Virus record (IMG/VR): IMGVR_UViG_3300028194_000576
Coordinates: 1-33,947 of that record
Source: a virus
Length of the DNA: 33,947 nucleotides
Reading direction: 5' to 3' (one strand)
Positions 2,181 through 24,758 of the stretch are shown here, piece by piece (positions within the stretch are counted from its first letter, which is position 1; the number at the start of each line of letters is the position of its first letter). The notes under the pieces were generated by a model that did not search any database, was not told where the DNA came from, and saw only the letters and a list, made by a program, of their open reading frames with translations. A program made the position numbers and the translations under genes.

Positions 2181-2229
2181 GAGATACAAATTATCTTACA
2201 CCTCAAAGTTAACTTTCAACTTTTAAAAG

Positions 2230-5011: not shown

Positions 5012-6053
5012 CTTCTTGACTTATCCCTAAAACTCTAGCTTTCCATTCCGCCATTCCTTCAAGCCTTTCAGCTTCTTTTTTGATTGATTCTTTTTGCATC
5101 TCAGCTATTCGGACCATCGTCTCTCTTTCTTCCTGCTCTTGGAATAATTGCACAATAGCGAGAAAAGATGCGTTTTCCTTATGCATTTTCTTCATGCGCT
5201 CTCCCCTGTCGCCTTGAAGCTTCTTTGTAAGGTTCTCGATGCGGGTTTCGCATTGATGATACTCGCTACTCTTTGTCTTGATGATCTCCGCTAAGCGGAT
5301 AGACATTTCTTGCTGCTCGTCTGCCTCATCGAACATGCTGTTCAATTTATTAAGATGAGCGCTAATAACTTCTAAATTTATAACTTCTTTGCAGACGTTT
5401 AGATAAAGATTTAATTCGTCAGCGGTTAAGTCGGGCTTATCCCATGTTAGTCTAACGAATTCATGTTCGAACAACACTCTATCCTCTTCATTCAGAAAAT
5501 TGTTGATAATTTTTAGAAATCTAGAGTTGGAAAGGTTTATCTTTAACCTATCTATACAAATTTGTTTCTGCCTATTGAGTTTTTGCTCGTTTAATACTAG
5601 CCCTGTAGCATCATTTATTTTTTTTATGATTCTCGAAGGCGATTTTGGAGAAATATACGAATTCAAAGCTCCAGAATCTTGAGATGGTAAAATATCTGGG
5701 TTAACCTCTCTAATTTTTTCCAGAACCACACGTTGCTCAGAACTTAGAGGTTTCACATTCCTAGACGGGAAAACTATCTTAGCTATCTCCAATGAAGATA
5801 ATCCCTCTTCCGCTTGCTGCAGAATGAATTCTCCCTGCTCTTTTGTTAAATTTATAACTTCAGCAGGTATTCTACTAGTTGTTTTGAACTTTATAGAGTT
5901 CTCTACTAAAAACTTACGAACAGCACGGCCTTCCTTAGATCTGCCGTCTAAAGATTCATCACCAAAACATTTTTTGGTCAAATCAATAAGATCTGGCATA
6001 TCATGAGAATTAACCCTTAAAAACTCTTTTTGATCTTTATTCAGCTCCATCAC
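5001..6053 (-). CDS. Coiled-coil protein with two HTH-like repeats, possible small terminase
   Basis: A 350-aa protein of no family I can name. Two N-terminal units look like a duplication: residues ~3-50 (LNKDQKEFL ... GRAVRKFLVE) and ~68-117 (LTKEQGEFI ... EQRVVLEKIRE), each with helix-turn-helix-like spacing (LTKEQ...LSSLEIAKIVF). The C-terminal half (~220-335) is Glu/Lys/Gln-rich and predicted coiled coil. Small terminase subunits combine an N-terminal HTH with an oligomerising helical region, and the gene is two positions upstream of the large subunit, so a TerS-like role is a reasonable inference. It overlaps the sigma-like gene upstream by 17 nt and the ERCC4 gene downstream by 11 nt. 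It could alternatively be a transcription factor. Confidence 0.75.
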   Translation of the reverse strand: MMELNKDQKEFLRVNSHDMPDLIDLTKKCFGDESLDGRSKEGRAVRKFLVENSIKFKTTSRIPAEVINLTKEQGEFILQQAEEGLSSLEIAKIVFPSRNVKPLSSEQRVVLEKIREVNPDILPSQDSGALNSYISPKSPSRIIKKINDATGLVLNEQKLNRQKQICIDRLKINLSNSRFLKIINNFLNEEDRVLFEHEFVRLTWDKPDLTADELNLYLNVCKEVINLEVISAHLNKLNSMFDEADEQQEMSIRLAEIIKTKSSEYHQCETRIENLTKKLQGDRGERMKKMHKENASFLAIVQLFQEQEERETMVRIAEMQKESIKKEAERLEGMAEWKARVLGISQEDAI

Positions 6054-6711
6054 CTATAATATCTTGCTCCTTTAGTATCTCTATAGCTACTTGTAGGAAT
6101 TTCTTCTTAAGATTCTTCACTTGCCTATAACCAAGCTTTCTCTTTTGCGGGGAGATCTTATATCCCATAAATTTAGCAACATCTTCCTCGCTACTACTTT
6201 CAAAATACAACATCCGATAAGCTATGTAATGATTATCCTTCAAACGGGCTTCCATTTCGAAATTTAGCTTTTCAAGCGATGATGAGAAGTCGAAGTCTAA
6301 ATATTGTTTATTGGTGACTTCTTTTACAAAGTCTTCAGTAGAAAGCGGGATTTTTAATTCTAGTCCTGCTTTTTTAGATTTTTCCCACTTTCGACAAATA
6401 GGACAGTTTGATGAGTCGTGAGATTGTTCTTGATGATTTTGACAAGGGTTAACATAATTCCCGTAGTGATTCCTTACTAGGTTTCTTATCTGATTTGATA
6501 TTATCCTCCCTATCCACGGTTCAAGAGGCCGCTCTTGATCCCACATGTCCCACTTCTTAGCAATGTGGACTTTTATGATTTGCTCTACATCTTCGAAGTC
6601 AAACCACCTGACAGCATTTAGCCGCCATTTATATTGCTGTTTCTTTATCGCTAGATCAATTACTTCAGAGAAGTCTTCATATGTATAATTACTTCCCTTT
6701 TTTCTTTTCAT
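6037..6711 (-). CDS. Sigma-70-like factor with internal zinc knuckle
   Basis: A 224-aa predicted sigma-like factor, counted from ATG 6711; upstream ATGs exist at 6777 and 6723 but lie inside the previous gene. Residues ~35-85 resemble sigma region 2 (FDFEDVEQIIKVHIAKKWD ... EPWIGRIISNQIRNLVRNHY). Residues ~160-212 resemble region 4, with an HTH (SSEEDVAKFMGYKIS ... YRQVKNLKKKFL). Between them sits C90-x2-H93 ... C103-x2-C106, a probable zinc site. T4-like phages encode a late sigma (gp55), and a role in late transcription would fit this gene's place in the packaging block; the function is inferred. It overlaps its neighbours on both sides, indicating one operon. Confidence 0.72.
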   Translation of the reverse strand: MKRKKGSNYTYEDFSEVIDLAIKKQQYKWRLNAVRWFDFEDVEQIIKVHIAKKWDMWDQERPLEPWIGRIISNQIRNLVRNHYGNYVNPCQNHQEQSHDSSNCPICRKWEKSKKAGLELKIPLSTEDFVKEVTNKQYLDFDFSSSLEKLNFEMEARLKDNHYIAYRMLYFESSSEEDVAKFMGYKISPQKRKLGYRQVKNLKKKFLQVAIEILKEQDIIGDGAE

Positions 6712-7033
6712 CAATAAAGTCATTAACAGATTTAGGTTCACGCCTCCTACTCGTAGGGTTAGGAGTTGGCTCACCAATTAATGACCCTAGTGTTCTACTA
6801 GAAATATTAGATACTTCCAAATCTACTTGAAAATCAGTAATCTCAGGAACAAACTCAGCATCCGTCTCGTCAGACGAGATCACTGAAGATTTTGTTGTTT
6901 CTGCGACAGAAGTGTTTGTCAAAACAGTAGAAGCTTTAGAATTCAAAGGCTGGCCGCACTTCGTGCAGAAGTTGGGCTTTGCATTAGCGTAAGAAATTTT
7001 AGTTCCGCAACTTTGACAAAATATGTGAGCCAT
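6689..7033 (-). CDS. Zinc-ribbon protein, first gene of the packaging operon
   Basis: A 114-aa protein. Residues 6-27 hold two knuckles, FCQSCG and FCTKCGQPL, typical of a zinc ribbon. The remainder is Ser/Thr/Val-rich and then basic (PTSRRREPK ... KKKGK), likely disordered. Zinc ribbons of this type occur in nucleic-acid- and RNA polymerase-associated proteins. Being the promoter-proximal gene next to a sigma-like factor makes a transcription-related role plausible but unproven. A TTGAAA-N16-TAAAAT promoter ends 7 nt before the ATG, so the mRNA is probably leaderless. Confidence 0.8.
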   Translation of the reverse strand: MAHIFCQSCGTKISYANAKPNFCTKCGQPLNSKASTVLTNTSVAETTKSSVISSDETDAEFVPEITDFQVDLEVSNISSRTLGSLIGEPTPNPTSRRREPKSVNDFIDEKKKGK

Positions 7034-7040
7034 ACTATAT

Positions 7041-7068
7041 ATTTTACTGTTTATGAATTAATTTTCAA
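7041..7068 (-). promoter_or_regulatory. Promoter of packaging operon, leaderless type
   Basis: On the minus strand TTGAAA (7063-7068), a 16-bp spacer, then TAAAAT (7041-7046), with 7 nt to the ATG at 7033. The layout matches the plus-strand leaderless promoters. Confidence 0.6.
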
Positions 7069-7152
7069 AAAAAACAAGTTTTGATGCATCCTTTTGTTTA
7101 TAAGCTGTTCGCCGCTTCCGCGTTGACGCATTTTCCTGTTTATATATTATTA

Positions 7153-7869
7153 TTACACTTTCTTCCAATTTTCTAACTTGGAAATGATAAATTTTAAAAT
7201 TTTACTTCTAACAATGTCTTTATTAGTGAATTGAAAAGTATCAATTCCATTAGCTCTAGAATCATCATCAGAAAAAATATCAACCATATTTTTAAAACCT
7301 GTCTTACCATCAATATCGCTTTGCATAAAGTCCCCACATATAATTAACTTAGTATTTTCACCAATACGAGTAATCAGAGTAGTCAACTCCTTAAATGTAA
7401 AGTTCTGCGCTTCGTCAGCGACAATAAGCTTGTCTTCCCAGTTCGCTCCCCTTAAAAAGTTTATAGGTATAGCATTTACGCGCTCTTTCTGTTTAAGATA
7501 GGCTGTATCGCCTTCATGTATGATTTCTTCAAGTTTATCATAAAGAGGTAGCGTAAAAAGATTGAATTTCTCAGACATATCTCCAGGAAGACTACCTAGA
7601 CCTTTATCAGCGCTTTCTACAATACTACGAACATAAAGAAGATCTTTATCTGAATCTTCCGACATTAATCTAAGGCAACCATATAAAGACATATAAGTCT
7701 TACTGGACCCAGCAGGACCAGAAACAAACATGATTTTTACCTCTGGATCTAGTAGTTTATCTAGAAATTTGCGTTGATTTGCGGTAAATTTAAATTTCCT
7801 CTCTTTAAACTTTATTGAAAAAAAGCTGTGAGGTTCCAACTGAATATTAGACAGTTTCTTAACTCCCAT
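7153..7869 (-). CDS. phoH: PhoH-like ATPase
   Basis: A 238-aa P-loop ATPase of the PhoH family, common in marine phages. It has Walker A GPAGSSKT (51-58), Walker B LIVADEAQN (~148-156) and a sensor-like IICGDFMQSD (~177-186). The motif order and length match the stand-alone PhoH domain, which resembles the N-terminal half of superfamily 1 helicases. The function of phage PhoH is unsettled; RNA or phosphate-stress roles have been proposed. It starts at ATG 7869 and lies between the tail-tube-like gene and a 119-bp intergenic region that contains the packaging promoter. Confidence 0.93.
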   Translation of the reverse strand: MGVKKLSNIQLEPHSFFSIKFKERKFKFTANQRKFLDKLLDPEVKIMFVSGPAGSSKTYMSLYGCLRLMSEDSDKDLLYVRSIVESADKGLGSLPGDMSEKFNLFTLPLYDKLEEIIHEGDTAYLKQKERVNAIPINFLRGANWEDKLIVADEAQNFTFKELTTLITRIGENTKLIICGDFMQSDIDGKTGFKNMVDIFSDDDSRANGIDTFQFTNKDIVRSKILKFIISKLENWKKV

Positions 7870-7892
7870 ATGTAATATACATTACACTGAAT

Positions 7893-8753
7893 TTACAGTT
7901 TTATCTGTTTAATTGTCGCAGTTGTTTGAATTGCCGCTCCACCTTGAGCGGAATATGATTCAGTCAAAACTCTCGCCCCAACGGGGAACTTAATCAAATC
8001 AGCAATAGGGGTAGAAGTCCCTATACCAACACCTCCCTGTATTTTTAAATCAACATTTAATTGACTAGCCAATTTTTCACCACTAAAATTTATTAAGCTC
8101 TTCAATCCTGTAGATGATACCGACATCTCCTCTTCAACCCCGTCCAGCAACATAGAAGACGCATTCACAGAACCTAAACCGTAAATTGGGGTGCGGTTGT
8201 ATGATCTCTTGAAATTTATTTGAGATTGAACTTGTCCCAACAAATCGTCGGTATCACCAATAGAACACGTATGACCATAAACAATACCATCACTATCTAA
8301 TGGTGGCTCCTGACCACTATACGGATTACTGTCACCAGTTATACCCCCTCCCACAGCAGGATCTAATGAAACAAAACTAGCACTCAAAATCACTGGCTCA
8401 AATGGACTTATGCTCAACGACACATCTTTAACATAACACTGGTTGTATATGCCACTACCCAACTTCATATTCACAAAATTGTCTTGGTTAGCATCTAATA
8501 AAAAATCCAGCCCCGAAAGCATCCCCGATTGCAATAAACAACTAACCGAGATATCTGCAGATAATGCGTTATTAAATGTAAACTGATCAGAAGAATCAAC
8601 ACTCTTACCCAATTTACGCCTAGCACTAGCAGAAGTGCTATAGCTCACGTTCAATTGCGTAGCTGGTACATAGTCGTTGACTTCATTCGGCGCACTCGCC
8701 CCAGCCCCGACTTGACCTATGTAAACTGGAAATTCACTGTATGGTAGACTCAT
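7893..8753 (-). CDS. Putative tail-tube-like structural protein
   Basis: A 286-aa protein that is beta-rich, Ser/Gly-rich and poor in charged clusters. Examples are LNVSYSTSASARRKLGKSVDSS near the start and VSLSISPFEPVILSASFVSLD in the middle. The pattern of alternating hydrophobic strands, a conserved-looking N-terminal segment with FPVYIG, and a length near 290 aa fit tail-tube or other virion proteins assembled in many copies. I see no enzyme motif. It is the first minus-strand gene left of a ~300-bp divergent intergenic region. The structural call is an inference from composition and neighbours; it could be another decoration or capsid protein. Confidence 0.6.
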   Translation of the reverse strand: MSLPYSEFPVYIGQVGAGASAPNEVNDYVPATQLNVSYSTSASARRKLGKSVDSSDQFTFNNALSADISVSCLLQSGMLSGLDFLLDANQDNFVNMKLGSGIYNQCYVKDVSLSISPFEPVILSASFVSLDPAVGGGITGDSNPYSGQEPPLDSDGIVYGHTCSIGDTDDLLGQVQSQINFKRSYNRTPIYGLGSVNASSMLLDGVEEEMSVSSTGLKSLINFSGEKLASQLNVDLKIQGGVGIGTSTPIADLIKFPVGARVLTESYSAQGGAAIQTTATIKQIKL

Positions 8754-9053
8754 TGTTTGTTATTACACTAATTTTGTACCCCGTTATAATTATAGGGGGG
8801 TGTATTTTTTTTTAAACAGCTAATATCAATAATAAAAACGTCAGCGACTGGTCCAATAATGGGTGGGGGTTTGGCCATTGAGAAATTGAAGTCGGACTCC
8901 CCCCGCGATTTTGCTACGCAAACGCTAACTAAATTTTTCAGAAATGGGGTGGGGTCTCTGGGGGTGGCTTGTCAAGTATTAAATTAAAATATATTTAAAA
9001 AATAATAGTAAAAAAAGCTTTTAGTTTAGTCGATACTGTGTTAAAATCTACCC
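8754..9053. promoter_or_regulatory. Divergent intergenic region between late and small-gene blocks
   Basis: About 300 bp with no convincing ORF. It contains a dyad CCCC-gttataattata-GGGG (about 8780-8799) followed by a T9 run, a G-rich stretch (GGGGTGGGGTCTCTGGGGG, near 8945-8967), and a GTCAAG box at 8971-8976 that recurs upstream of later plus-strand units. The plus-strand promoter is at 9010-9047. I see no clear -35/-10 pair for the minus-strand tail-tube gene. Confidence 0.5.
9010..9053 (+). promoter_or_regulatory. Leaderless promoter of the 9054 gene
   Basis: TAAAAT at 9042-9047 is followed by exactly 6 nt and the ATG at 9054. The -35 region is occupied by AAAAAAGCTTTT (9011-9022), a motif shared with two later promoters (9321-9335 and 10533-10547). 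Confidence 0.6.
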
Positions 9054-9308
9054 ATGAAGCAACAAAAAGAAATGCAGCCAACTCCATCACCCTTTAGCGA
9101 AGAGGCAATGCCTTTTAACTACGCCAACGAAGATGGTGGAGGTATGAACAAGAGTCTATTCTTTCAGATCATGGATGAGGTTTTTGCTGGCAGTATGTAT
9201 AAAGACATCGAAGACAAGTATGGTTCAGAGATCGTCAAGGAATATCTTAAGTATGGGGATGACAATGATCACTTTGACTTTTTTAAGTTCGGTTGGATAA
9301 GTAAATAA
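9054..9308 (+). CDS. Hypothetical 84-aa acidic protein
   Basis: No family recognised. It has a Pro/Gln-rich N-terminus, a Gly-rich turn (EDGGG), then a helical acidic region ending in HFDFFKFGW. It is the first gene of the plus-strand small-gene block. Its predicted transcription start coincides with the ATG, so it should be translated from a leaderless mRNA. Confidence 0.7.
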   Translation: MKQQKEMQPTPSPFSEEAMPFNYANEDGGGMNKSLFFQIMDEVFAGSMYKDIEDKYGSEIVKEYLKYGDDNDHFDFFKFGWISK

Positions 9309-9320
9309 ATTAAAATAATA

Positions 9321-9366
9321 GCAGAAAAAGCTTTTTTAAAATCAATTTTTAATGTATACTACTCAC
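9321..9366 (+). promoter_or_regulatory. Leaderless promoter of the 9367 gene
   Basis: GCAGAAAAAGCTTTT (9321-9335) lies upstream of TATACT (9355-9360), which is followed by exactly 6 nt and the ATG. Confidence 0.6.
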
Positions 9367-9531
9367 ATGAAAGCAAACAACACAGGCCGCACTCACCACG
9401 AAAGAGTTTTAGATGCTCGCGAGTCACTTTGGAATAACACAATGAAGTGCCAAGAACAGCGCGAAGCCAACCCTATCGACTGGAAAGCTAGTGCAGAGGC
9501 TGGCAAAGCAGTCTTTAAAAACACAAAATAA
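9367..9531 (+). CDS. Hypothetical 54-aa protein
   Basis: A short basic helical protein (begins MKANNTGRTHHERVLDARES) with no recognised family. Support comes from a well-formed promoter placed 6 nt before its ATG, sensible amino-acid composition, and its fit between two equally organised genes. The stop is TAA at 9529-9531. Confidence 0.65.
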   Translation: MKANNTGRTHHERVLDARESLWNNTMKCQEQREANPIDWKASAEAGKAVFKNTK

Positions 9532-9540
9532 ATCTTTACA

Positions 9541-9564
9541 CTAGCCCCAACTCTATACTAGAAT
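9541..9564 (+). promoter_or_regulatory. Leaderless promoter of the 9571 gene
   Basis: TAGAAT (9559-9564) is 6 nt before the ATG. A -35-like TTACAC lies 17 bp upstream. The -35 begins about 10 bp after the previous stop codon. Confidence 0.55.
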
Positions 9565-9570
9565 ACTCCC

Positions 9571-9759
9571 ATGACTGACACAGATACCACCACTGACTTT
9601 GACAGATTCAACAATGAGCGCAACGCAGCAAACGCGATGCGGGATGAGCTTTGCTTCATCACTGGTCTTCTCAATTTGGATAGCCCCGAAGTATCAGACA
9701 GAATCCAAAAGGCTCTTGATAAGCACAAGCAAGAGAGAGATCAAGTATGGGGATTCTAA
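9571..9759 (+). CDS. Hypothetical 62-aa protein
   Basis: Acidic, helical, no known family. It starts with a Thr/Asp-rich segment (MTDTDTTTDFDRF) and ends in a charged helix (KALDKHKQERDQVWGF). The promoter lies 6 nt from the start. Its stop is 26 nt before the next start. Confidence 0.65.
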   Translation: MTDTDTTTDFDRFNNERNAANAMRDELCFITGLLNLDSPEVSDRIQKALDKHKQERDQVWGF

Positions 9760-9785
9760 TCCCACCACCACCAAACACTAACACT

Positions 9786-10010
9786 ATGAACCTACATAAC
9801 TTCAAAGACCAAGATACCAAAGGCAAAGCCATTCTCATTCTCACTTACCCTTTCGCCATCGGCATTCACTTGGGTGAATGGCTTAGGATGCGGAAGCTCC
9901 AGCGCATGATCAGAAAGTGGATCGGTGCAGCTTGCAAGAATCCACAAGGGGTCGAGGCTGAGATGGTCAAGGAGTGGAGCGATGAACTTCGCTGGATCTA
10001 CGGGAAGTAA
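9786..10010 (+). CDS. Small basic protein with one possible membrane helix
   Basis: 74 aa from ATG 9786; a longer frame from 9747 would overlap the previous gene and adds a Pro-rich stretch. Residues ~13-30 (AILILTYPFAIGIHLGEWL) form a hydrophobic helix followed by a strongly basic segment (RMRKLQRMIRKW), a topology seen in small phage membrane proteins. No family recognised. Probably co-transcribed with the 9571 gene. Confidence 0.65.
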   Translation: MNLHNFKDQDTKGKAILILTYPFAIGIHLGEWLRMRKLQRMIRKWIGAACKNPQGVEAEMVKEWSDELRWIYGK

Positions 10011-10021
10011 ACAAAAACAAG

Positions 10022-10261
10022 ATGACTAAAGAAACACAACAAGCAAAAGAAAAGAGAATCCATGATTGGGCCACTGGCTCTATGCAGTTAGAGTTTGACG
10101 GTGAGAACTACTTTAAGCTAAACCCTTGGAGAGAGATGAGGGTTGATGGTAAGAAAGTCCCTAACCCAGACTATGGCAAGAAAATGATTATCCCTCGCGA
10201 TAAGATAGACGCAGACATGGAGTTTGCTTTCGGAAGTTTCGCTCAGTATGGGTGCGACTAA
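10022..10261 (+). CDS. Hypothetical 79-aa protein
   Basis: Soluble, charged and aromatic-rich (DGENYFKLNPWREMRVDGKK), with no recognised family. It starts 11 nt after the previous stop without an SD sequence, so it is likely the last gene of the 9571 unit. It is followed by a 317-bp non-coding region. Confidence 0.65.
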   Translation: MTKETQQAKEKRIHDWATGSMQLEFDGENYFKLNPWREMRVDGKKVPNPDYGKKMIIPRDKIDADMEFAFGSFAQYGCD

Positions 10262-10330
10262 GCTCCGTCAAGTGAGTATAAACACGGTTAAGCGATCCGT
10301 AAGACGTTAAATAAGAAGTGATCGTGGGTC

Positions 10331-10363
10331 TGGCATAGCCCTCGCAGAAATATGCCACTTTTT
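10331..10363 (+). terminator. Candidate hairpin/terminator
   Basis: TGGCATA (10331-10337) pairs perfectly with TATGCCA (10351-10357), and a short T-rich run follows. It lies downstream of the 10022 gene. It could alternatively be part of a small RNA in 10262-10380. Confidence 0.4.
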
Positions 10364-10380
10364 ACTTGACACGAATAAAA

Positions 10381-10470
10381 CGCTCTAACTCACTGAGCGA
10401 TAGGCAGTTACAGGGCAGCGCCCCGCCCCGACCCGTAACTCATTGAGTATCAACGACTTACGAGGGTTTT
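10381..10470 (+). repeat. Double-hairpin element copy 1
   Basis: First of six ~95-bp intergenic elements. Two imperfect 27-nt hairpins (arms of the GTAACTC/GAGTTAC type) flank a GC-rich core (GCAGCGCCCCGCCCCGACCC), with A-rich left and T-rich right ends. This copy has mismatched arms (GTAACTC against GACTTAC in the second hairpin). A GTCAAG box follows at 10495-10500. Confidence 0.8.
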
Positions 10471-10532
10471 CTCCCTACTCTATAGCTCGCCTATGTCAAG
10501 ACTTTTTAAATAAAAAAAAAGATTAAATATAT

Positions 10533-10572
10533 GCAGAAAAAGCTTTTAATAATCTGCCGATTAGAGTAAAAT
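10533..10572 (+). promoter_or_regulatory. Leaderless promoter of the 10579 gene
   Basis: GCAGAAAAAGCTTTT (10533-10547) sits upstream of TAAAAT (10567-10572), which is exactly 6 nt before the ATG. Confidence 0.6.
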
Positions 10573-10578
10573 ATCCCC

Positions 10579-10863
10579 ATGATAGACCAAGACAACATCA
10601 CTAGCCTGATCGGGAAACAGTTTGTTTACTACACTTCCAATAATGGAAATGCTCGCATGTACATCCTCAAAAGCATTGACCGCATTGGTGACGGGTTCGC
10701 AGTGTGCAAGGTCGTTGACAAGAGTCACGATAGCAAGACTGGTAACAAGCAAGTTTTCAAGACTCTCCGCTTCAGATGTATTGATCGCCAAGGTATGCGT
10801 CGTTTCCAGCCCAAGGTCTTAGTAAATCATTCGGAGACGGTGCCACCAGTCGTCGAAAAATAA
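10579..10863 (+). CDS. Hypothetical 94-aa protein
   Basis: Beta-rich, basic small domain: an FVYYTSNNGNARMYILKSI strand pair, then FAVCKVVDKSH, then a basic stretch (KTLRFRCIDRQGMRRF). The pattern is reminiscent of small SH3-like or OB-like nucleic-acid-binding folds, but I recognise no family. It has its own leaderless promoter and a stop 59 nt before the next start. Confidence 0.7.
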   Translation: MIDQDNITSLIGKQFVYYTSNNGNARMYILKSIDRIGDGFAVCKVVDKSHDSKTGNKQVFKTLRFRCIDRQGMRRFQPKVLVNHSETVPPVVEK

Positions 10864-10886
10864 ATTAAAAAAGATGCGATTAGTGC

Positions 10887-10915
10887 TTGCACCCAACCCA
10901 CAATTCAACTAAAAT
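10887..10915 (+). promoter_or_regulatory. Leaderless promoter of the 10922 gene
   Basis: TTGCAC (10887-10892), a 17-bp spacer, TAAAAT (10910-10915), then 6 nt to the ATG. One of the best matches to a sigma70 consensus in the window. Confidence 0.75.
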
Positions 10916-10921
10916 TCCCAC

Positions 10922-11080
10922 ATGAGCGACACCAACAACTGGACAGTAAGAATGTATAAAGCAGAACTAAAAGGCATGGAAGAAGGTCTGATCAAAATCA
11001 AGTCCTACGGTCTTTGCACCCTCGATGCAAAAAAGTTAATTGCTGAAAAGAAAAAACAAATCCTAAAAGCCTCTAAGTAA
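10922..11080 (+). CDS. Hypothetical 52-aa basic protein
   Basis: Short Lys-rich protein, beginning MSDTNNWTVRMYKAELKGME and ending in a helix (AEKKKQILKASK). No family recognised. The coding call rests on the strong promoter with a 6-nt gap, intact frame and immediate coupling (1 nt) to the next gene. Confidence 0.65.
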   Translation: MSDTNNWTVRMYKAELKGMEEGLIKIKSYGLCTLDAKKLIAEKKKQILKASK

Positions 11081-11081
11081 T

Positions 11082-11216
11082 ATGAACACAATCCTCACCA
11101 TCGCAGGGGTCATCTTCACGCTTGTCATCGCTGGCAACTTGGAGATGATCGACCACTCCGAAGATCTCGAAAAAGAAATCAAAAATAGCATTGACCTCAA
11201 CCACCTATTCAACTAA
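11082..11216 (+). CDS. 44-aa single-pass membrane protein
   Basis: The N-terminal hydrophobic helix (TILTIAGVIFTLVIAGNL) is followed by an acidic tail, predicting a membrane anchor with a cytoplasmic or periplasmic acidic end. It starts 1 nt after the previous stop. Its 3' end contains the whole promoter of the next gene, and its TAA stop is the first three bases of that promoter's -10 box. The function is unknown. Confidence 0.65.
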   Translation: MNTILTIAGVIFTLVIAGNLEMIDHSEDLEKEIKNSIDLNHLFN

Positions 11217-11219
11217 AAT
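11191..11219 (+). promoter_or_regulatory. Leaderless promoter embedded in the preceding gene
   Basis: TTGACC (11191-11196), a 17-bp spacer, TAAAAT (11214-11219), then 6 nt to the ATG at 11226. The -10 box overlaps the stop codon (11214-11216) of the upstream gene. Confidence 0.75.
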
Positions 11220-11225
11220 TCCGTT

Positions 11226-11648
11226 ATGCAAACAACACTAGACACCATCCAGCAAATCCTCTCTTCTAACCTCACACCAGTAGCCTTTGCCATTATCGGC
11301 ATCATTGCTCTGATCTCCGCTTTCGTTATCTTCTGGGATAACCTGTCTGACAAGCAGAAGCTTCGCAACTTCTACAAGATGCCCCCTTCTGAGTTGGAGC
11401 AGCTTCTCACGAATAGCATTGTGACTTATGTAAACTCTGGAGCCTCCACCGTCAAGGTGAGTGGAATCAGAAACTTCCTAGTGGAAAGCATAGAGACAGA
11501 TGCGTTCTCCGCTATGAATAAGCGTTACCTTGTAGCTGCTACCCGTGACCTCGATGACGGAGGGGAGCGCAAGTTTCGCACCCTCCAAGTCGCTGGGATC
11601 TCAAATGTCAGAAGCCGTTGGGTAGCCATGTTCAGATTCTTTTTGTAA
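11226..11648 (+). CDS. 140-aa single-pass membrane protein
   Basis: Residues ~17-37 form a clear transmembrane helix (PVAFAIIGIIALISAFVIFW), followed by a cytoplasmic-looking domain of ~100 aa. That domain contains KLRNFYKMPPSELEQLL and a basic C-terminus (GERKFRTLQVAGISNVRSRW). No family recognised. It is preceded by an excellent leaderless promoter and followed by a strong GC-rich terminator, so it can be expressed as a single-gene unit. Membrane remodelling or host takeover are possible roles but unsupported. Confidence 0.75.
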   Translation: MQTTLDTIQQILSSNLTPVAFAIIGIIALISAFVIFWDNLSDKQKLRNFYKMPPSELEQLLTNSIVTYVNSGASTVKVSGIRNFLVESIETDAFSAMNKRYLVAATRDLDDGGERKFRTLQVAGISNVRSRWVAMFRFFL

Positions 11649-11667
11649 TTGTGTGTTGTGTGTATAG

Positions 11668-11698
11668 CCCGTCCCCTGTGGTGGGGGGCGGGTTCTTC
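11668..11698 (+). terminator. Rho-independent terminator
   Basis: CCCGTCCCC (11668-11676) pairs with GGGGGCGGG (11684-11692, one G-T wobble), followed by a T-rich TTCTTCT. The same stem recurs at 13615. Confidence 0.75.
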
Positions 11699-11712
11699 TA
11701 TGTAAAAAAAAG

Positions 11713-11901
11713 ATGCCAAATCAAAAAATAAACTTGACAACTGCAGATCGCGAAGAGTATGACCGCGCCATGCAGCGCTTGGCGATACTCGCAGAGGCCA
11801 GCACTCGCGACCCATTGCCAGAAGACTTCAAAAAACGCTCTAAGTCACTGAGTATCAACGAGTTACGGGCCGCGCCCCGCCCCCGCTCTGTAACTAACTG
11901 A
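11713..11901 (+). CDS. Hypothetical 62-aa protein whose 3' end is the double-hairpin element
   Basis: The frame starts at ATG 11713, just after the upstream terminator and an A8 run, with no promoter of the usual kind. Residues 1-41 look like a normal acidic helical protein (LTTADREEYDRAMQRLAILA). Residues ~42-62 are encoded by the repeat element (RSKSLSINELRAAPRPRS) and look like translated repeat. Either the original stop was lost when the element arrived, or the gene is a decaying remnant. The coding status is moderately uncertain. Confidence 0.45.
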   Translation: MPNQKINLTTADREEYDRAMQRLAILAEASTRDPLPEDFKKRSKSLSINELRAAPRPRSVTN

Positions 11902-11926
11902 TTAGTAGTGACTTACGAGGCTTTTC
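11831..11926 (+). repeat. Double-hairpin element copy 2
   Basis: Same architecture as the copy at 10381: A-rich end, first hairpin, GC core (GGGCCGCGCCCCGCCCCC), second hairpin, T-rich end. It supplies the last ~21 codons and the stop of the 11713 frame. A GTCAAG box follows at 11950-11955. Confidence 0.85.
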
Positions 11927-11998
11927 TCCCTACTGTGCAAACTTCTTATGTCAAGCCTTTTGTTAGGAAATAAATAAAAAAATAAATCAAAATAGTTA

Positions 11999-12027
11999 TT
12001 GCTAAAAACTAATTGTGCGACTACTAT
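11999..12027 (+). promoter_or_regulatory. Leaderless promoter of the 12034 gene
   Basis: TTGCTA (11999-12004), a 17-bp spacer, TACTAT (12022-12027), then 6 nt to the ATG. Confidence 0.7.
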
Positions 12028-12033
12028 TCCCTC

Positions 12034-12267
12034 ATGGCTACACTAACACCAGACCAGTTGTATGAATTCGCTTATCAGGCAGGACTCCGAGGACAGGAGA
12101 GCATGACTTGCCCAAGCTCTTACCGTGGGTGGGTAATCCCAGAAATTTTCTCAAACGGAGAAATCCCTCATAGGCTTTGGAGGGTGGCCTATGCCGAAGG
12201 CTTGGAGCAGTATGGCACTTACATGGTGCAAGGGGCAGAGGACGCAGCCCAAGACTGGCAGGACTAA
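12034..12267 (+). CDS. Hypothetical 77-aa protein
   Basis: The start is set at ATG 12034 because the promoter's -10 box lies 6 nt upstream; the longer TTG frame from 12013 would begin inside the promoter. The protein is acidic, with aromatic-rich segments (YEFAYQAGLRGQESM, RLWRVAYAEGLEQYGTYM). Short helical domains with AYxxG(L/F) repeats like this occur in several phage small proteins, but no function is known. Its TAA stop runs directly into the next double-hairpin element. Confidence 0.7.
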   Translation: MATLTPDQLYEFAYQAGLRGQESMTCPSSYRGWVIPEIFSNGEIPHRLWRVAYAEGLEQYGTYMVQGAEDAAQDWQD

Positions 12268-12362
12268 AACCCTCGTAACTCGTTGTGTATCAGCGAGTTA
12301 CGGGCCACGCGCCGCCCCTGCCCTGTAACTCATTGATTAGCAGTGAGTTACGGGGTTTTTTT
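12266..12362 (+). repeat. Double-hairpin element copy 3 (best-formed)
   Basis: First hairpin 12275-12301 (GTAACTCGTTG / CAGCGAGTTAC, 11 bp with one G-T pair). GC core GGGCCACGCGCCGCCCCTG. Second hairpin 12325-12351 (GTAACTCATTG / CAGTGAGTTAC). Flanked by AAAACCC on the left and GGGG plus T7 on the right. The outer arms can also pair with each other to give one long hairpin. Confidence 0.9.
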
Positions 12363-12401
12363 ATGACCTGATAAATCGCGGCAAGTCAAGCCTTTTATTG
12401 C

Positions 12402-12459
12402 GCTATTTGGCCTAAAATATCCTGACCTACGCTATTTGTCGCAAAATATGCTGAGCTGC
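12402..12459 (+). repeat. Two tandem copies of the 29-bp bipartite repeat
   Basis: Units at 12402-12430 and 12431-12459, each with TATTTG near the left end and TGACCT or TGAGCT near the right. They lie about 40 bp upstream of the -35 box of the ParB-like gene, a position suited to an operator or activator site. Confidence 0.75.
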
Positions 12460-12500
12460 ATTTTAAAATAAAAAAAAATCAAAAAAATAGAAGAAAAGTG

Positions 12501-12528
12501 TTGCACAGGAATCAAATCTAGTTATACT
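12501..12528 (+). promoter_or_regulatory. Promoter of the ParB-like gene
   Basis: TTGCAC (12501-12506), a 16-bp spacer, TATACT (12523-12528). Unlike the others it leaves a ~58-nt leader before ATG 12593. Confidence 0.7.
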
Positions 12529-12592
12529 GTGGATGTCGCTGATGAACCACTGATTCGGGGGCATTTAACAATAACCTAAAAGTAACAACGTT

Positions 12593-13600
12593 ATGACTAA
12601 GAAAAATAAAACAAAGTTCTATAAGAACTCCCACAAGCCAGTAACAAAATACCAGCTTGAAGCAAAGCCTTTGTCTGAAGCCCCAGAGCTTCAAGAGGTA
12701 GGCATCTACAAGATAGCGCGAATTAAAAAGGAAAACATCGGAGTCGATGAAGCCTTCCAAAGAGCGTTAAACAAAAATCAAATTAGAAACATCCAAGAGA
12801 ATTGGGATGATGATGATTGCGATTTGCCTAACATCTACCTGCATAAATACAAAGGTAAATACTACCCTCAAATCACTGATGGTCAGCATAGAATTTGCGC
12901 CTCGCCTCATGATACTATTGATTGTAGAGTAGTTAATACACTAGCATCAATCACAAGGTGCTTGCGAGCCAATGACCCAAAGACAAAAAGTCAATGGGAA
13001 GTAAACGCTAGGTTCTGGGGTCATGCTGAAGCGATCACTAGGCTTAACGAAAGTGATCCTGATAACATTCATGGGATAATCAAACTTTTCAAAAAGCTCG
13101 GTTATAATCCATTGAATCCAACAAAGGAGAAAGCTCTTGATCTTGGCTCTAATGTCGCCGCCCTTCATGGTCAGATCTTAGCGGCTATTAATATGATGTT
13201 AAGAAATAGACTGTTAAGTTCAACAGAGAAAGCTGCTATCACCAAAAAAGTCATGGAAGACACCGTGAAAATCGTTGATCATGTCTTCAGAGACGAGATC
13301 GCAAACCAAAAGGCATTTGGAGCGCAACTGTGGTCTGGATTACCTCAATTTCTCTTAGACTCTATAAAGGATAGAGGCTTAGGAGGAGACTATGATATCG
13401 ATAAGATTAAAGCGGTAATATCGAAAGGCATTTGGGGTATTAACGGCAATCACCCAAGGAGAGGCGAGTTAAAAACTCTTGCTCAGTTTGAATTAGCCGT
13501 TCTAAAATATCAAGCAAAAAGTATAAAAGGAGTATCTGGCAGAAAAGCTAACTGCTGGCAGAGACTCTTCTTTGATATGCACAAACTGTATAATAAGTAA
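12593..13600 (+). CDS. ParB/sulfiredoxin-fold protein
   Basis: A 335-aa protein. Residues ~40-115 carry a ParB/Srx-like core: a KIKKENIGVDEAFQRAL-type lead-in, NQIRNIQENWD, then YYPQITDGQHRICA with the hallmark DGQHR at 96-100. This fold occurs in partition proteins, DndB-like proteins and phage ParB-like nucleases, and binds nucleotides. The C-terminal ~200 residues are helical and unlike the HTH of classical ParB, so plasmid partition is unlikely. It may act as a regulator or nuclease; that is inference. A lone leaderful promoter with two upstream bipartite repeats and a downstream GAAA-loop terminator make it a separately controlled unit. Confidence 0.8.
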   Translation: MTKKNKTKFYKNSHKPVTKYQLEAKPLSEAPELQEVGIYKIARIKKENIGVDEAFQRALNKNQIRNIQENWDDDDCDLPNIYLHKYKGKYYPQITDGQHRICASPHDTIDCRVVNTLASITRCLRANDPKTKSQWEVNARFWGHAEAITRLNESDPDNIHGIIKLFKKLGYNPLNPTKEKALDLGSNVAALHGQILAAINMMLRNRLLSSTEKAAITKKVMEDTVKIVDHVFRDEIANQKAFGAQLWSGLPQFLLDSIKDRGLGGDYDIDKIKAVISKGIWGINGNHPRRGELKTLAQFELAVLKYQAKSIKGVSGRKANCWQRLFFDMHKLYNK

Positions 13601-13614
13601 AGCACTAAATTCAG

Positions 13615-13645
13615 CCCGTCCCCGAAAGGGGGCGGGTTTCTTTTT
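13615..13645 (+). terminator. Rho-independent terminator
   Basis: CCCGTCCCC (13615-13623), GAAA tetraloop, GGGGGCGGG (13628-13636), then TTTCTTTTT. It lies directly downstream of the ParB-like gene. Confidence 0.9.
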
Positions 13646-13648
13646 AAT

Positions 13649-13744
13649 AAAACCTTTCTAAGTCGTTGACTATCAGCGAGTTACGGGCCAGCCGCCGCCG
13701 CCGCCCTGTAACTCCTTGAGTAGCAGTGACTTACAGAGGTTTTT
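13649..13744 (+). repeat. Double-hairpin element copy 4
   Basis: Follows a complete terminator by only 4 nt, so this element is not needed simply for termination. The core is GGGCCAGCCGCCGCCGCCG. A GTCAAG box follows at 13768-13773. Confidence 0.85.
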
Positions 13745-13782
13745 CCTTACTCGGTGGATTGGGGCAAGTCAAGCTTTTTATT

Positions 13783-13811
13783 CCTATTTGTTGCGAAATG
13801 TCCTGACCTAC
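13783..13811 (+). repeat. 29-bp bipartite repeat
   Basis: CCTATTTG ... CTGACCTAC, same orientation and spacing as the 12402 pair, and ~30 bp upstream of the next -35 box. Confidence 0.7.
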
Positions 13812-13841
13812 AAAAAAAGACAAAAAAACTTTAAAAAGGTA

Positions 13842-13869
13842 TTGCGCACAAACTGTTTTCTGTCATAAT
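13842..13869 (+). promoter_or_regulatory. Promoter of the DUF932 gene
   Basis: TTGCGC (13842-13847), a 16-bp spacer, CATAAT (13864-13869). The predicted start point is near 13876, about 39 nt before the ATG. Confidence 0.65.
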
Positions 13870-13877
13870 TCCCCTGT

Positions 13878-13894
13878 CGAGAGATAGTCTCTCG
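13878..13894 (+). promoter_or_regulatory. 5'-terminal leader hairpin
   Basis: Perfect inverted repeat CGAGAGA-tag-TCTCTCG followed by TTTTTA, lying at the very 5' end of the predicted mRNA. It could stabilise the transcript against 5' decay or act as an attenuator. Confidence 0.6.
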
Positions 13895-13914
13895 TTTTTA
13901 ACCTAACTACTATT

Positions 13915-14679
13915 ATGCTTATCTACGCAAAAAACAAAGTCGATTCGGAGCAACTTGCTGGAGTTCAAACCCCAGAGGGGACAGCTTCCCATACTCCAAT
14001 CCCGCATCACCACTTGGTGAAGATGACCCGTGAAACTCTTGACCGCGCAGGTCTTGAGGTTACCGAGGAGGAACACGCTCTTGCCCGTGGTGGCCTTCGC
14101 TACTTCGGAGGGTTCGCCCTCAAGGGTCAGGATGTCACTGGCGATGATCGTCGCATTGTCTTGGGCCTTCGGAATGCTCATGACAAGTCTTTCGCCGCTT
14201 CTATTGCTGCGGGTAATCAGATGATGGTTTGCGAAAACCTTTGCTTCTCTTCGGATGTCAAGCTTGCTCGCCGTCACACCACCCACATTTTGGGTGACCT
14301 TCCCCGTGTTCTGGCTTCAGCCGTTGCCCGTGTCACTTCTCACTGGCAGGATATGGGCAAGCGCATTAACGCTTACCAGCAGGCGGAGGTTCGTGATGCC
14401 GCTTCTATGATTGTTGACTTGGTAGATGCCAAGGCTTTCCCTGCTCGCGACATTTACAAAGCCGTTGAGGAATTCCGCAACCCTCGCCATGAGGAATTCA
14501 AGGGCGGTTCTCTCTGGACCCTCTATAATTCCATCACTGAGAATCTCAAGGGTGGCGATCTCACCAAGCTTGCAGACCGTACTATGCGGATGCAATCCAT
14601 TTTTGACAAGTTCGCCAACCACACTCCAGAGATTATCTCTCAAGAGGATAAGGAGTCGGCCCTAGTTTTACCTGCATAG
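13915..14679 (+). CDS. DUF932-family phage/plasmid protein
   Basis: A 254-aa protein. The segment VLGLRNAHDKSFAASIAAGNQMMVCENLCFSSDVKLARRHT (about 82-122) matches the DUF932 signature (GxRNSHDxS ... VCxNLxF ... KHT), a family common in phages, plasmids and integrative elements with no settled function. Other regions are helical. Codon choice is biased toward CGT, CTT and GGT, and GC content is higher than in neighbours, hinting at strong expression. A 5' hairpin leader, no SD, and a GC-rich hairpin after the stop frame the gene. It is the only large gene in the block besides the ParB-like and GP88-like genes. Confidence 0.85.
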   Translation: MLIYAKNKVDSEQLAGVQTPEGTASHTPIPHHHLVKMTRETLDRAGLEVTEEEHALARGGLRYFGGFALKGQDVTGDDRRIVLGLRNAHDKSFAASIAAGNQMMVCENLCFSSDVKLARRHTTHILGDLPRVLASAVARVTSHWQDMGKRINAYQQAEVRDAASMIVDLVDAKAFPARDIYKAVEEFRNPRHEEFKGGSLWTLYNSITENLKGGDLTKLADRTMRMQSIFDKFANHTPEIISQEDKESALVLPA

Positions 14680-14686
14680 CCATAAC

Positions 14687-14704
14687 GCCCCCCGAAAGGG
14701 GGGC
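14687..14704 (+). terminator. GC hairpin without U-tract (partial terminator or processing site)
   Basis: GCCCCCC-GAAA-GGGGGGC, perfect, immediately after the DUF932 gene but followed by AACCTTATC rather than Ts. It may lower read-through into the small gene at 14714 or protect the upstream 3' end. Confidence 0.7.
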
Positions 14705-14713
14705 AACCTTATC

Positions 14714-14827
14714 ATGAAAGATCAAGACAGAACCTTTACCGAAAATGTCGTTTTTACTTGTGTGATTATACTTTCTGGACTAGTCACCGCTTTCGGCCTC
14801 ATCCAACTTATCAGGATGGCTCTATAA
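14714..14827 (+). CDS. 37-aa single-pass membrane peptide
   Basis: Begins MKDQDRTFTENVVF and continues as a hydrophobic helix (CVIILSGLVTAFGLIQLI) ending RMAL. It has no promoter of its own and starts 9 nt after a GC hairpin, so it depends on read-through from the DUF932 promoter. A full terminator follows at 14848. No family recognised. Confidence 0.6.
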   Translation: MKDQDRTFTENVVFTCVIILSGLVTAFGLIQLIRMAL

Positions 14828-14847
14828 TTTGTTGGTAGACATAAGCA

Positions 14848-14885
14848 AAGCCTCGTCCCTTTCATGTTGGGGGCGGGGCTTTTTC
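14848..14885 (+). terminator. Rho-independent terminator
   Basis: AAAGCCTCGTCCC pairs with the GGGGCGGGGCTTT side (two G-T wobbles) across a short loop, ending in TTTTTCC. Confidence 0.8.
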
Positions 14886-14889
14886 CTTT

Positions 14890-14977
14890 GTAACTCGTTG
14901 TGTATCAATGACTTACAGGCGAGCCGCCGCCGCTGCCCCGTAACTCCCTATCAATCAACGACTTAGAGAGGTTTTTT
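14890..14977 (+). repeat. Double-hairpin element copy 5
   Basis: It again follows a complete terminator within ~5 nt. The core is GCGAGCCGCCGCCGCTGCCC. The right hairpin is imperfect (GTAACTCC / GACTTAG). A GTCAAG box follows at 14981-14986. Confidence 0.8.
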
Positions 14978-15021
14978 CGTGTCAAGCATTAAAAAATAAT
15001 AAAAAAACATTTAAAATACAC

Positions 15022-15049
15022 TTGCACCCAAACCCAAACCTGTCAAAAT
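15022..15049 (+). promoter_or_regulatory. Promoter of the 15059 operon
   Basis: TTGCAC (15022-15027), a 16-bp spacer, CAAAAT (15044-15049), with 9 nt to the ATG. The predicted leader is 0-3 nt. Confidence 0.65.
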
Positions 15050-15058
15050 ACTTTTGTT

Positions 15059-15409
15059 ATGGGATTAGACCAATATGCACACCGAAGGGACTCTAATGGT
15101 GAGTCAACTGAGCTTTCTTACTGGCGCAAACATAATGCTTTGCAAGGTTGGATGGAAAAACTTTGGGCGATCAGGACGGGTAAATCAGAAAATGATCTTA
15201 ATTGTCATGAGCTTGAAATCACTACGCAAGATCTAGATCACCTATGGACTTCGATCACCAATCAGACACTACCGAAAACCCAAGGATTTTTCTTTGGTGA
15301 TGATAGTAGTCAAGACGCAAGTAAACGAGGAAACGATCTAGAATTTGTATGTAAAGCTAGAGAGGCTATCGAAGCAGGGGACAAAGTCTTCTACTCTTGC
15401 TCATGGTAA
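15059..15409 (+). CDS. Conserved phage protein with MGLDQYA N-terminus
   Basis: A 116-aa protein. The opening MGLDQYAHRR followed by ELSYWRKHNALQGWMEKLW is a widespread pattern in phage genomes, cyanophages included: MGLDxY...YWRKxxxLxxW, with a later Asp/Gly-rich FFFGDDSS and VFYSCSW. These are sometimes labelled phosphoglycerate kinase-like without support; the function is unknown. The conserved Trp/His/Arg residues suggest a small binding domain. It is the first gene of an operon that runs to 17137. Confidence 0.75.
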   Translation: MGLDQYAHRRDSNGESTELSYWRKHNALQGWMEKLWAIRTGKSENDLNCHELEITTQDLDHLWTSITNQTLPKTQGFFFGDDSSQDASKRGNDLEFVCKAREAIEAGDKVFYSCSW

Positions 15410-15423
15410 AACAAAAAACAATT

Positions 15424-16128
15424 ATGAAACTACTAAATCAAGGCAATGCCAAAACACTAAAGGGAGAGGTTTTAGGATATCGCACTTTCGGTCTCCACCT
15501 TTCCCCCTCTAACAAATCAGGATTCAACGTCTGCCAATGGTCAAGCGCAGGTTGTCGTGCTGCTTGTTTAGATACTGCGGGGCGCGGTTGTATGTCAAAC
15601 GTGCAAACCGCTAGAATAAACAAAACTAAAAGATTCTTTAAGGACAACTTTGGTTTTATGTCAGACCTTAGGGTTGAAATCAGCAAGGCGATCATTAGCG
15701 CAGCTAAAAAGCAAATGATTCCATGCTTTCGCCTTAATCTAACCTCAGATATTCCTTGGGAGAATGTCCGCAAGGGTAGCAAAACAAATCTGATTGAAGA
15801 GTTCCCAAATGTGAATTTCTACGATTACACTAAAGGGTTTTATAGAATGAGGGCTTGGCTTGATGGCAAAATGCCTGACAACTACCATCTTACCTTTTCT
15901 CGTAGTGAGGAGACTAGTGATAATAAAATGAAAACAATCCTTGAGTTAGGGGGCAACGTCGCCGTCGTTTTTCGTGGTTCTCTCCCTAAAACTTATCTAG
16001 GTTACCCCGTTGTCAATGGTGATGAGAATGATCTGCGCTTTAAAGATCCTAAAGGCGTGATCGTCGGATTGGTCGAGAAAGGTCTTGCTAAAAAAGACGA
16101 AACAGGTTTTGTTGTTGAGCCGAAATGA
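15424..16128 (+). CDS. GP88-family protein (mycobacteriophage gene product 88-like)
   Basis: 234 aa from ATG 15424. Upstream ATGs at 15397 and 15403 overlap the previous gene. The N-terminal part has GLHLSPSNKSGFNVC and a Cys cluster C37-x6-C44-x3-C48-x7-C56 in SAGCRAACLDTAGRGC. Further motifs are FRLNLTSDIPWENV, FYDYTKGF, HLTFSRSEE and NVAVVFRG. Together these recall the Pfam GP88 family, whose function is unknown. The regular spacing of strand-ending motifs suggests a barrel-like fold, and the cysteines could bind zinc or an Fe-S cluster; both points are inference. It is the largest gene of its operon, coupled by ATGA to a 22-aa peptide gene. Confidence 0.75.
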   Translation: MKLLNQGNAKTLKGEVLGYRTFGLHLSPSNKSGFNVCQWSSAGCRAACLDTAGRGCMSNVQTARINKTKRFFKDNFGFMSDLRVEISKAIISAAKKQMIPCFRLNLTSDIPWENVRKGSKTNLIEEFPNVNFYDYTKGFYRMRAWLDGKMPDNYHLTFSRSEETSDNKMKTILELGGNVAVVFRGSLPKTYLGYPVVNGDENDLRFKDPKGVIVGLVEKGLAKKDETGFVVEPK

Positions 16129-16193
16129 GTATAGAATTCATAATCACTTTTTGTTTATGCTTAATATGTTTAATAACTTACAGAACAAGATGA
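16125..16193 (+). CDS. 22-aa membrane peptide with ATGA coupling on both sides
   Basis: The start ATG (16125) shares ATGA with the stop of the GP88-like gene, and its TGA stop (16191-16193) shares ATGA with the next start at 16190. The peptide starts MSIEFIITFCLC and is almost entirely one hydrophobic helix ending in TYRTR. The double stop-start overlap is hard to explain without translation of this frame. Confidence 0.6.
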   Translation: MSIEFIITFCLCLICLITYRTR

Positions 16194-16456
16194 AATCAAA
16201 AGACTACCACGCCCTCAAAGATGAGTTTCTCCGCAAATCGGTTGAAAATAAAGAGATAATAAAACAATCCTCGCAAGGAAACTTTGGGATGTACGATGTA
16301 CTCCCCGCAAACATTGCTCGCACAGTGAGCGAAGCTTGCGATGAATTCTTTAAATCAAGAAACATTAGATACGGTTCTGCATGGTTCCATGATAGAAACG
16401 ACAGAAAGAAAAAAATACAACAAGCAAAAGATGAACAACGAAACACCAACAATTAA
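16190..16456 (+). CDS. Hypothetical 88-aa basic protein
   Basis: Starts at ATG 16190 (MKSKDYHALKDEFLRK), coupled to the 22-aa peptide gene. Helical and highly charged, with a motif GMYDVLPANIARTVSEACDEFF and a Lys/Arg-rich C-terminus. No family recognised. The 3' end overlaps the next gene by 26 nt. Confidence 0.65.
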   Translation: MKSKDYHALKDEFLRKSVENKEIIKQSSQGNFGMYDVLPANIARTVSEACDEFFKSRNIRYGSAWFHDRNDRKKKIQQAKDEQRNTNN

Positions 16457-16676
16457 ATTGACAGGGGTATTCCCTAAAACATTTAGAGTAACTAAGTGTG
16501 AAAGCGGAAGGAATGATTGCAACTTTGAATATTCTGACGAAAAGAAACAAGTGTTTTTTGAAGTGTGCTTACATGGAGCGTTTTCACTGCATGAACATTT
16601 CACAGATTTAGGTTATACAGAATTGGCCCCAAAAGTAGAATTCCCAACTTGGCATCCTAACCACAAGAAAAGCTAA
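16431..16676 (+). CDS. Hypothetical 81-aa protein
   Basis: Starts at ATG 16431 (MNNETPTIKLTGVFPKTFR), inside the tail of the previous gene. Probably a small beta domain with Cys/His residues (KCESGRNDC, EVCLHGAFSLHEHF) that might bind a metal. No family recognised. Confidence 0.65.
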   Translation: MNNETPTIKLTGVFPKTFRVTKCESGRNDCNFEYSDEKKQVFFEVCLHGAFSLHEHFTDLGYTELAPKVEFPTWHPNHKKS

Positions 16677-16680
16677 AATT

Positions 16681-16971
16681 ATGATTAAAAAACACACAAT
16701 GCCGTGCATTCACATGAATGGATCGGATGAGGATAGACTACGCAGACAATACAATGATTTGTTTTGCGCTGTAAGCGACGCTCAAGTTAAACTGCTTTAT
16801 GATACAGACTTCCATGAGAGAGATTACTACCCTCTTGGGAATGAAGCTTGGGATAAAGCTTATCAAGAAAGAGAAGAGGTTAAGGAAGCAATGACTAAGG
16901 TTTACCAGTATGCCAAGCAACATATGCATTACCTCGACTATGGAAAGGAGCCGTTGCCAGATGAAGATTAA
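16681..16971 (+). CDS. Hypothetical 96-aa protein
   Basis: Helical and acidic. It begins with Cys/His residues (HTMPCIHMNG) followed by DEDRLRRQYNDLFCAVSDAQVKL and a long charged helix. Four nt separate it from the previous stop, with no SD. No family recognised. Confidence 0.65.
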   Translation: MIKKHTMPCIHMNGSDEDRLRRQYNDLFCAVSDAQVKLLYDTDFHERDYYPLGNEAWDKAYQEREEVKEAMTKVYQYAKQHMHYLDYGKEPLPDED

Positions 16972-17137
16972 AAACTACTTGGTGATAATGGAGGAAGTGA
17001 ACCGCTTGCAGTTTGAAGTTGAAGCCTCTTCGGAGGCTGCGGCTATCGACTTGGTTTACTTTGGGGAGGCTGGAGATCCTACCGATCAAAAGGTAATGGA
17101 GTTTAACTGTCTCTCTGTAAAAGAATACATTAAATAA
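16961..17137 (+). CDS. Hypothetical 58-aa protein, last gene of the plus block
   Basis: Starts at ATG 16961 (MKIKNYLVIMEEVNRLQFEV), overlapping the previous gene by 11 nt. A beta-alpha pattern (YLVIMEEVNRLQFEVEASS, then EAAAIDLVYFGE) is typical of tiny phage proteins of unknown function; the minus-strand 18049 protein has a similar strand followed by an AxSxDEA helix. The TAA stop (17135-17137) runs directly into double-hairpin element 6. Confidence 0.65.
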   Translation: MKIKNYLVIMEEVNRLQFEVEASSEAAAIDLVYFGEAGDPTDQKVMEFNCLSVKEYIK

Positions 17138-18044: not shown

Positions 18045-18048
18045 AGGT

Positions 18049-18586: not shown

Positions 18587-18592
18587 AATATA

Positions 18593-20084: not shown

Positions 20085-20088
20085 AGGA

Positions 20089-20325: not shown

Positions 20326-20333
20326 ACGCAAGC

Positions 20334-20361: not shown

Positions 20362-20405
20362 GCCTTTTTTTGCCTTTTTTTTGAATTTAAATTCTTATTA
20401 TAGCT

Positions 20406-21020: not shown

Positions 21021-21021
21021 T

Positions 21022-24756: not shown

Positions 24757-24758
24757 AG

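Follow-up and report, generated by a model that had tools for sequence, protein, structure and literature searches.

The 33,947-bp IMG/VR virus record IMGVR_UViG_3300028194_000576, hereafter the window (the whole stretch of DNA that was analysed), has a guanine-plus-cytosine content of 38%. On its plus strand, small genes are clustered at 9054..17137, most of them without known family (DUF932 and GP88 are among those assigned); the cluster has minus-strand genes on both flanks and recurs in relatives. Its members are probably the early genes of a phage. Seven of them, starting at 9054, 9367, 9571, 10579, 10922, 11226 and 12034, were reported in an original prediction to have a TANNNT hexamer followed by exactly six nucleotides (nt) and the ATG, an arrangement written here as TANNNT-N6-ATG, and to be transcribed into leaderless mRNAs. 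The arrangement is present at every coordinate (7/7 genes). The -35 hexamers described for four genes, 17 bp before the -10 box, are also there (three TTGNNN and one TTACAC), and AAAAAGCTTTT occupies the -35 position at genes 9054, 9367 and 10579, where the hexamer reads TTTTNN and directly follows AAAAAGC. The seven promoters are as follows.

9019..9053, plus strand: promoter of gene 9054; AAAAAAAGC, -35 TTTTAG (9019-9024), 17 bp, TAAAAT (9042-9047), ctaccc, ATG
9332..9366, plus strand: promoter of gene 9367; AGAAAAAGC, -35 TTTTTT, 17 bp, TATACT (9355-9360), actcac, ATG
9536..9570, plus strand: promoter of gene 9571; -35 TTACAC, 17 bp, TAGAAT (9559-9564), actccc, ATG
10544..10578, plus strand: promoter of gene 10579; AGAAAAAGC, -35 TTTTAA, 17 bp, TAAAAT (10567-10572), atcccc, ATG
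10887..10921, plus strand: promoter of gene 10922; -35 TTGCAC, 17 bp, TAAAAT (10910-10915), tcccac, ATG
11191..11225, plus strand: promoter of gene 11226; -35 TTGACC, 17 bp, TAAAAT (11214-11219), tccgtt, ATG
11999..12033, plus strand: promoter of gene 12034; -35 TTGCTA, 17 bp, TACTAT (12022-12027), tccctc, ATG

An in-frame ATG at 9352 would put the -10 box of gene 9367 within the gene; relatives point to 9367 as the likely start. A further N6 case in the window lies on the minus strand at 31532, with TTG at 16 bp. Minus-strand promoters with the wider gaps of 7-9 nt that had been described were found at 7033, 20325 and 26018, where the gaps are 7, 8 and 9 nt, respectively. The site at 7033 resembles the late motif presented below as well.

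In the window, TANNNT stands at distance 6 from 7/19 plus-strand starts. Among 3,000 dinucleotide shuffles, a control that the original prediction had proposed, the count at this distance reached a maximum of 4 and the best count over all distances from 0 to 24 was never above 5; the 6-nt spacing is thus enriched. The terminase of the window has 84-100% identity to those of the best 80 of 234 matching stretches from a viral collection. At the loci of relatives that were compared, made non-redundant by removing near-identical upstream sequences, TANNNT was found 6 nt before 68/308 early-strand starts, whereas distances 8-35 average 5.96 starts each (Poisson p ~6e-47). The figure of 68/308 is an undercount, because some starts assigned by the longest open reading frame fall on an in-frame ATG within the N6, as in the sequence TATACT-ATGCCC-ATG of L012. 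When a TTG 23 bp upstream was required, 27 starts were found at distance 6 and 0-4 at any other. The terminase-carrying strand of the relatives has no comparable peak (18/271 at 6 nt, equal to 5 nt). On the early strand the peak matches the expected positions of promoters, since N6 was found at 22/48 genes with an upstream gap of 21-60 nt and at 34/122 with a longer gap, versus 6/91 operon-internal genes. TANNNT is common in AT-rich DNA and a consensus scan of the region stays at the shuffled level, which would suit chance hexamers selected post hoc; we give this explanation practically no weight, as seven sites were observed against a shuffle maximum of 4/19, 68 against 6 in the relatives, and orthologues conserve the spacing. 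The comparison with relatives rules it out.

Orthologues of genes 9367, 10579, 11226 and 12034 retain TANNNT-N6-ATG with few exceptions, although the spacer and the -35 vary, as do the first codons in some cases. The exceptions at gene 12034 are L045, with a 5-nt gap, and L042, with no promoter at that place. Gene 9054 retains the arrangement in L004, L017 and L022 despite different N-terminal codons. The spacing is likewise kept by the orthologues of gene 9367, where TTGCAC takes up this register in some relatives, and by most orthologues of gene 10579, in which the -35 is TTTTAA or TTGTGT. Among the 68 N6 promoters of relatives, the -35 is TTG in 46 and TTT in 16, at the 16-18 bp that are canonical for sigma70 promoters with TTGNNN; the spacer after TTG is 16 bp long in 18 promoters and 17 bp long in 27. 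Their composite has an A-tract from -44 to -38, a T at -34 (93% of the promoters) followed by G or T at -33, and TANNNT at -12 to -7, with TG before the -10 in 24/68. Within the N6, G is absent at -6 and -5, and C occupies -1 in 57/68 (84%) of the N6 genes versus 60/240 (25%) of other early genes (p 1e-18). Sigma70 polymerase prefers to initiate at C(-1)A(+1), 7 nt past the -10. The beginning of the coding sequence is CA-rich in N6 genes, with 3.16 versus 2.21 CA per 27 nt (p 1e-5), and CA repeats have been reported to aid leaderless translation.

The original prediction divided these promoters into two subclasses. Both forms exist; their separateness is weak, as a single register (A-tract, a -35 of TTG or TTT, 16-17 bp, TANNNT) is common to the AAAAAGCTTTT and the TTGNNN promoters and orthologues interchange them. 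A refinement that need not exclude a common promoter type would make the AAAAAGCTTTT promoters a separate class, in which the AAAAGCTTTT palindrome is bound by an activator or repressor of the phage that takes the place of sigma region 4, comparable to the MotA middle promoters of T4. The palindrome is perfect, is present in 9/16 TTT-type and 0/46 TTG-type promoters and is nearly absent at late starts. It occupies the register of an ordinary -35, however, AAAGC-TTTT and AAAGC-TTGC interchange between orthologues, and no regulator was identified, and we consider the separate class rather doubtful.

No Shine-Dalgarno sequence at or below -4.4 kcal/mol precedes any of the seven genes, and their mean duplex energy equals that of shuffled sequence. 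Shine-Dalgarno complementarity showed no excess over shuffles in any class of early genes, including the promoter-proximal ones; the sole excess, a weak one, is in late operon-internal genes (14 vs 7.2). The phage lineage thus appears to make little or no use of Shine-Dalgarno sequences and would need another start signal, a role that TANNNT-N6 itself might have if it were a translation signal, such as an unstructured AT-rich ribosome-binding region, with the promoters further upstream. This seems very improbable to us, as the block is coupled to a -35 at 16-17 bp and an A-tract and is rare in operon-internal genes (6/91), although these too need translation.

We propose instead that the seven genes very probably have sigma70-type promoters with the start site at the A of the ATG and would therefore yield leaderless mRNAs, as had been predicted. 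The exact spacing conserved in relatives, the canonical -35 spacing, C(-1)A(+1) and the lack of Shine-Dalgarno sequences together give this proposal strong support. Each gene would have its own promoter, made up of the A-tract, a -35 (TTGNNN or degenerate TTTTNN), 16-17 bp and TANNNT, which a host-type holoenzyme, presumably the host RNA polymerase, would transcribe early in infection. Initiation 7 nt past the -10, at C(-1)A(+1), would coincide with the A of the ATG, so that each mRNA would open with a 5'-AUG followed by an A/CA-rich, G-poor stretch. Host ribosomes would then initiate at the 5'-terminal AUG independently of a Shine-Dalgarno sequence.

Several observations weigh against this proposal. 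A generic sigma70 consensus scan found no enrichment in the region (14 sites vs 14.3 in shuffles) and detected just two of the seven promoters; the signal therefore resides in the fixed distance and its conservation and not in the strength of the hexamers. Ordinary leaders are found at some genes of the same cluster (12593 and 13915), and two metagenome bins that hold relatives have no clear N6 use in their own genes (10/128 and 6/129). Additionally, the start site of a bacterial promoter can vary by 1-3 nt, which leaves room for leaders of 1-2 nt. The same promoters could accordingly start 1-3 nt upstream of the ATG and produce a tiny, non-Shine-Dalgarno leader, in line with the modestly raised counts at neighbouring distances on the early strand (18 at 5 nt and 12 at 7 nt, vs a background of ~6) and with the other promoters of the same phage that have 7-9 nt gaps. 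We regard such leaders as unlikely, since the sharp mode at 6 and the preference for C(-1)A(+1) put initiation on the A.

The proposed leaderless strategy is regional and not genome-wide, contrary to what the original prediction had expected. In two 90-kb relatives the class lies almost wholly within one early cluster, a 6-8 kb set of small genes that diverges from the late operon. G642 has 12 N6 promoters with a -35 between 79,907 and 87,236 and 2 elsewhere, and G643 has 10 between 37,605 and 43,332 and 0 elsewhere. At two genes of the cluster in the window, a leader of about 40-60 nt separates the promoter from the start codon:

12501..12592, plus strand: leadered promoter of gene 12593; TTGCAC, 16 bp, TATACT (12523-12528), 5' leader of ~60 nt
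13842..13914, plus strand: leadered promoter of the DUF932 gene 13915; TTGCGC, 16 bp, CATAAT (13864-13869)

The leader of gene 12593 contains at 12532-12564 a block, GATGTCGCTGATGAACnACTGATTCGGGGGCAT, that is conserved in relatives and has no match in Rfam. A structured RNA was considered for this leader and rejected, as the fold is not significant (z -1.3). The leader of the DUF932 gene has at 13878-13894 a conserved hairpin, CGAGAGATAGTCTCTCG, followed by TTTTT, with paired changes in L039 (TGAGAG...CTCTCA). This hairpin may be an attenuator. Double hairpins of the form GTAACTC...GAGTTAC, with GC-rich centres, stand after plus-strand genes at 10386-10470, 11841-11925, 12276-12360, ~13660-13745, 14890-14975 and 17140-17230; at least one of these elements is terminator-like and ends in a T-run.

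The plus-strand cluster is the middle one of three gene blocks in the window. The others are:

210-8753, minus strand: terminase, PhoH, a sigma-like protein and others
17862-33679, minus strand: AAA/RuvB-like clamp-loader relative, HNH, glycosyltransferases and one tRNA

The window is probably a fragment of a larger phage genome, because near relatives reach 89-91 kb. The phage belongs to a little-known group of marine bacterial viruses. No DNA-level similarity to phage records was found for the first 25 kb of the window, which was the part compared, and protein matches are distant. Aside from the tRNA, no known RNA families were found in the window. Near the end of the record, at 33748-33936 on the minus strand, a short unit (TCTAGCG.TGGTATCGGATCG) is tandemly repeated inside an open frame.

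Late genes have a separate motif, GTGTAA(T/C)A, whose distance to the ATG is mostly 8-15 nt. It lies no more than 22 nt from the start in 38/234 non-redundant late-strand genes versus 1/261 early ones, and it is retained in relatives with terminase identity of just 40-66%. Its occurrences in the window and its candidate reader are:

8763..8768, minus strand: GTGTAA, followed after 9 nt by the ATG of gene 7893-8753
7882..7887, minus strand: GTGTAA, followed after 12 nt by the ATG of the PhoH gene (7153-7869)
2196..2201, minus strand: GTGTAA, followed after 15 nt by the ATG of gene 210-2180
31816-31821, minus strand: GTGTAA(T/C)A motif
6037..6723, minus strand: candidate reader, a sigma-like protein of the phage with only region 2 of sigma70

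The sigma-like protein matches PHROG 1740 (E 1e-5) and Pfam Sigma70_r2 (E 2e-4, below the curated cut-off). Judged from these sequence features, GTGTAA(T/C)A is probably a phage late promoter read by the phage's own sigma-like protein. T4 late promoters (TATAAATA, gp55) likewise combine a short motif near the start site of late genes with a phage sigma-like protein; the sequence differs, and the sigma-like gene of the window is only a candidate reader. More tentatively, and short of thinking it probable, we suggest that this lineage, with its little or no use of Shine-Dalgarno sequences, might run two start-proximal programmes: early genes that are fully leaderless and transcribed from host-type promoters, followed by late genes transcribed with the phage sigma from GTGTAA(T/C)A, with start sites 0-7 nt ahead of the ATG. 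The first gene of most transcripts would then be leaderless or nearly so.

Scans of bacterial and archaeal genomes with the DUF932 and terminase proteins gave matches in two metagenome bins only. When the search was widened, the order to which the Flavobacteriaceae bin belongs yielded one more match, and the phylum of the other bin yielded only the match already known. A host assignment from these bins was rejected: their contigs are possibly mis-binned, and the phage promoters do not show TAnnTTTG, the -7 motif of Bacteroidota.

TANNNT ~12 bp before the ATG is a published mark of leaderless genes (PMC3160421, PMC12340547), and leaderless bacterial genes led by it have been described by Zheng 2011 (PMC3160421), in Deinococcus-Thermus (PMC12340547) and in Mycobacterium tuberculosis (PMC3898074). 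The phage genes resemble these in having the first T ~12 bp ahead of the start codon, more often than shuffled sequences do, and no Shine-Dalgarno sequence; they differ in that the phage adds a conserved -35 and A-tract and restricts the class to one cluster. Leaderless initiation was first discovered in lambda (PMC3160421). The lambda cI mRNA from PRM also starts at the AUG, but is a single gene, compared with a cluster having mostly leaderless promoters, as predicted here. Thermus phage phiYS40 has leaderless middle and late transcripts (Sevostyanova 2007, as described in PMC3594737). On that account, a temporal class of phage genes is produced as leaderless mRNA in phiYS40, as is proposed here; the genes are middle and late in phiYS40, whereas a presumed early cluster with -35/-10 promoters is concerned here. 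A phiYS40-type switch of translation to leaderless mRNA would be recognized by IF2/IF3 levels changing during infection. The authors of the AR9 work noted that phage transcripts are often leaderless. No description of the present promoter class in these phages was found in open-access papers. Leaderless phage genes are thus already known from lambda and phiYS40, and the cluster, as interpreted here, is a new, unusually clean and strongly conserved example of leaderless genes known from other bacteria and phages.

The proposal corrects the annotated start of one gene from 9352 to 9367 and predicts, to the base, the 5' ends of dozens of transcripts in a widespread uncultivated marine phage group. 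The predicted leaderless early genes, standing beside leadered neighbours, form a natural comparison set. The proposal would also imply a host that translates leaderless mRNA efficiently, which is a clue to the host of these phages.

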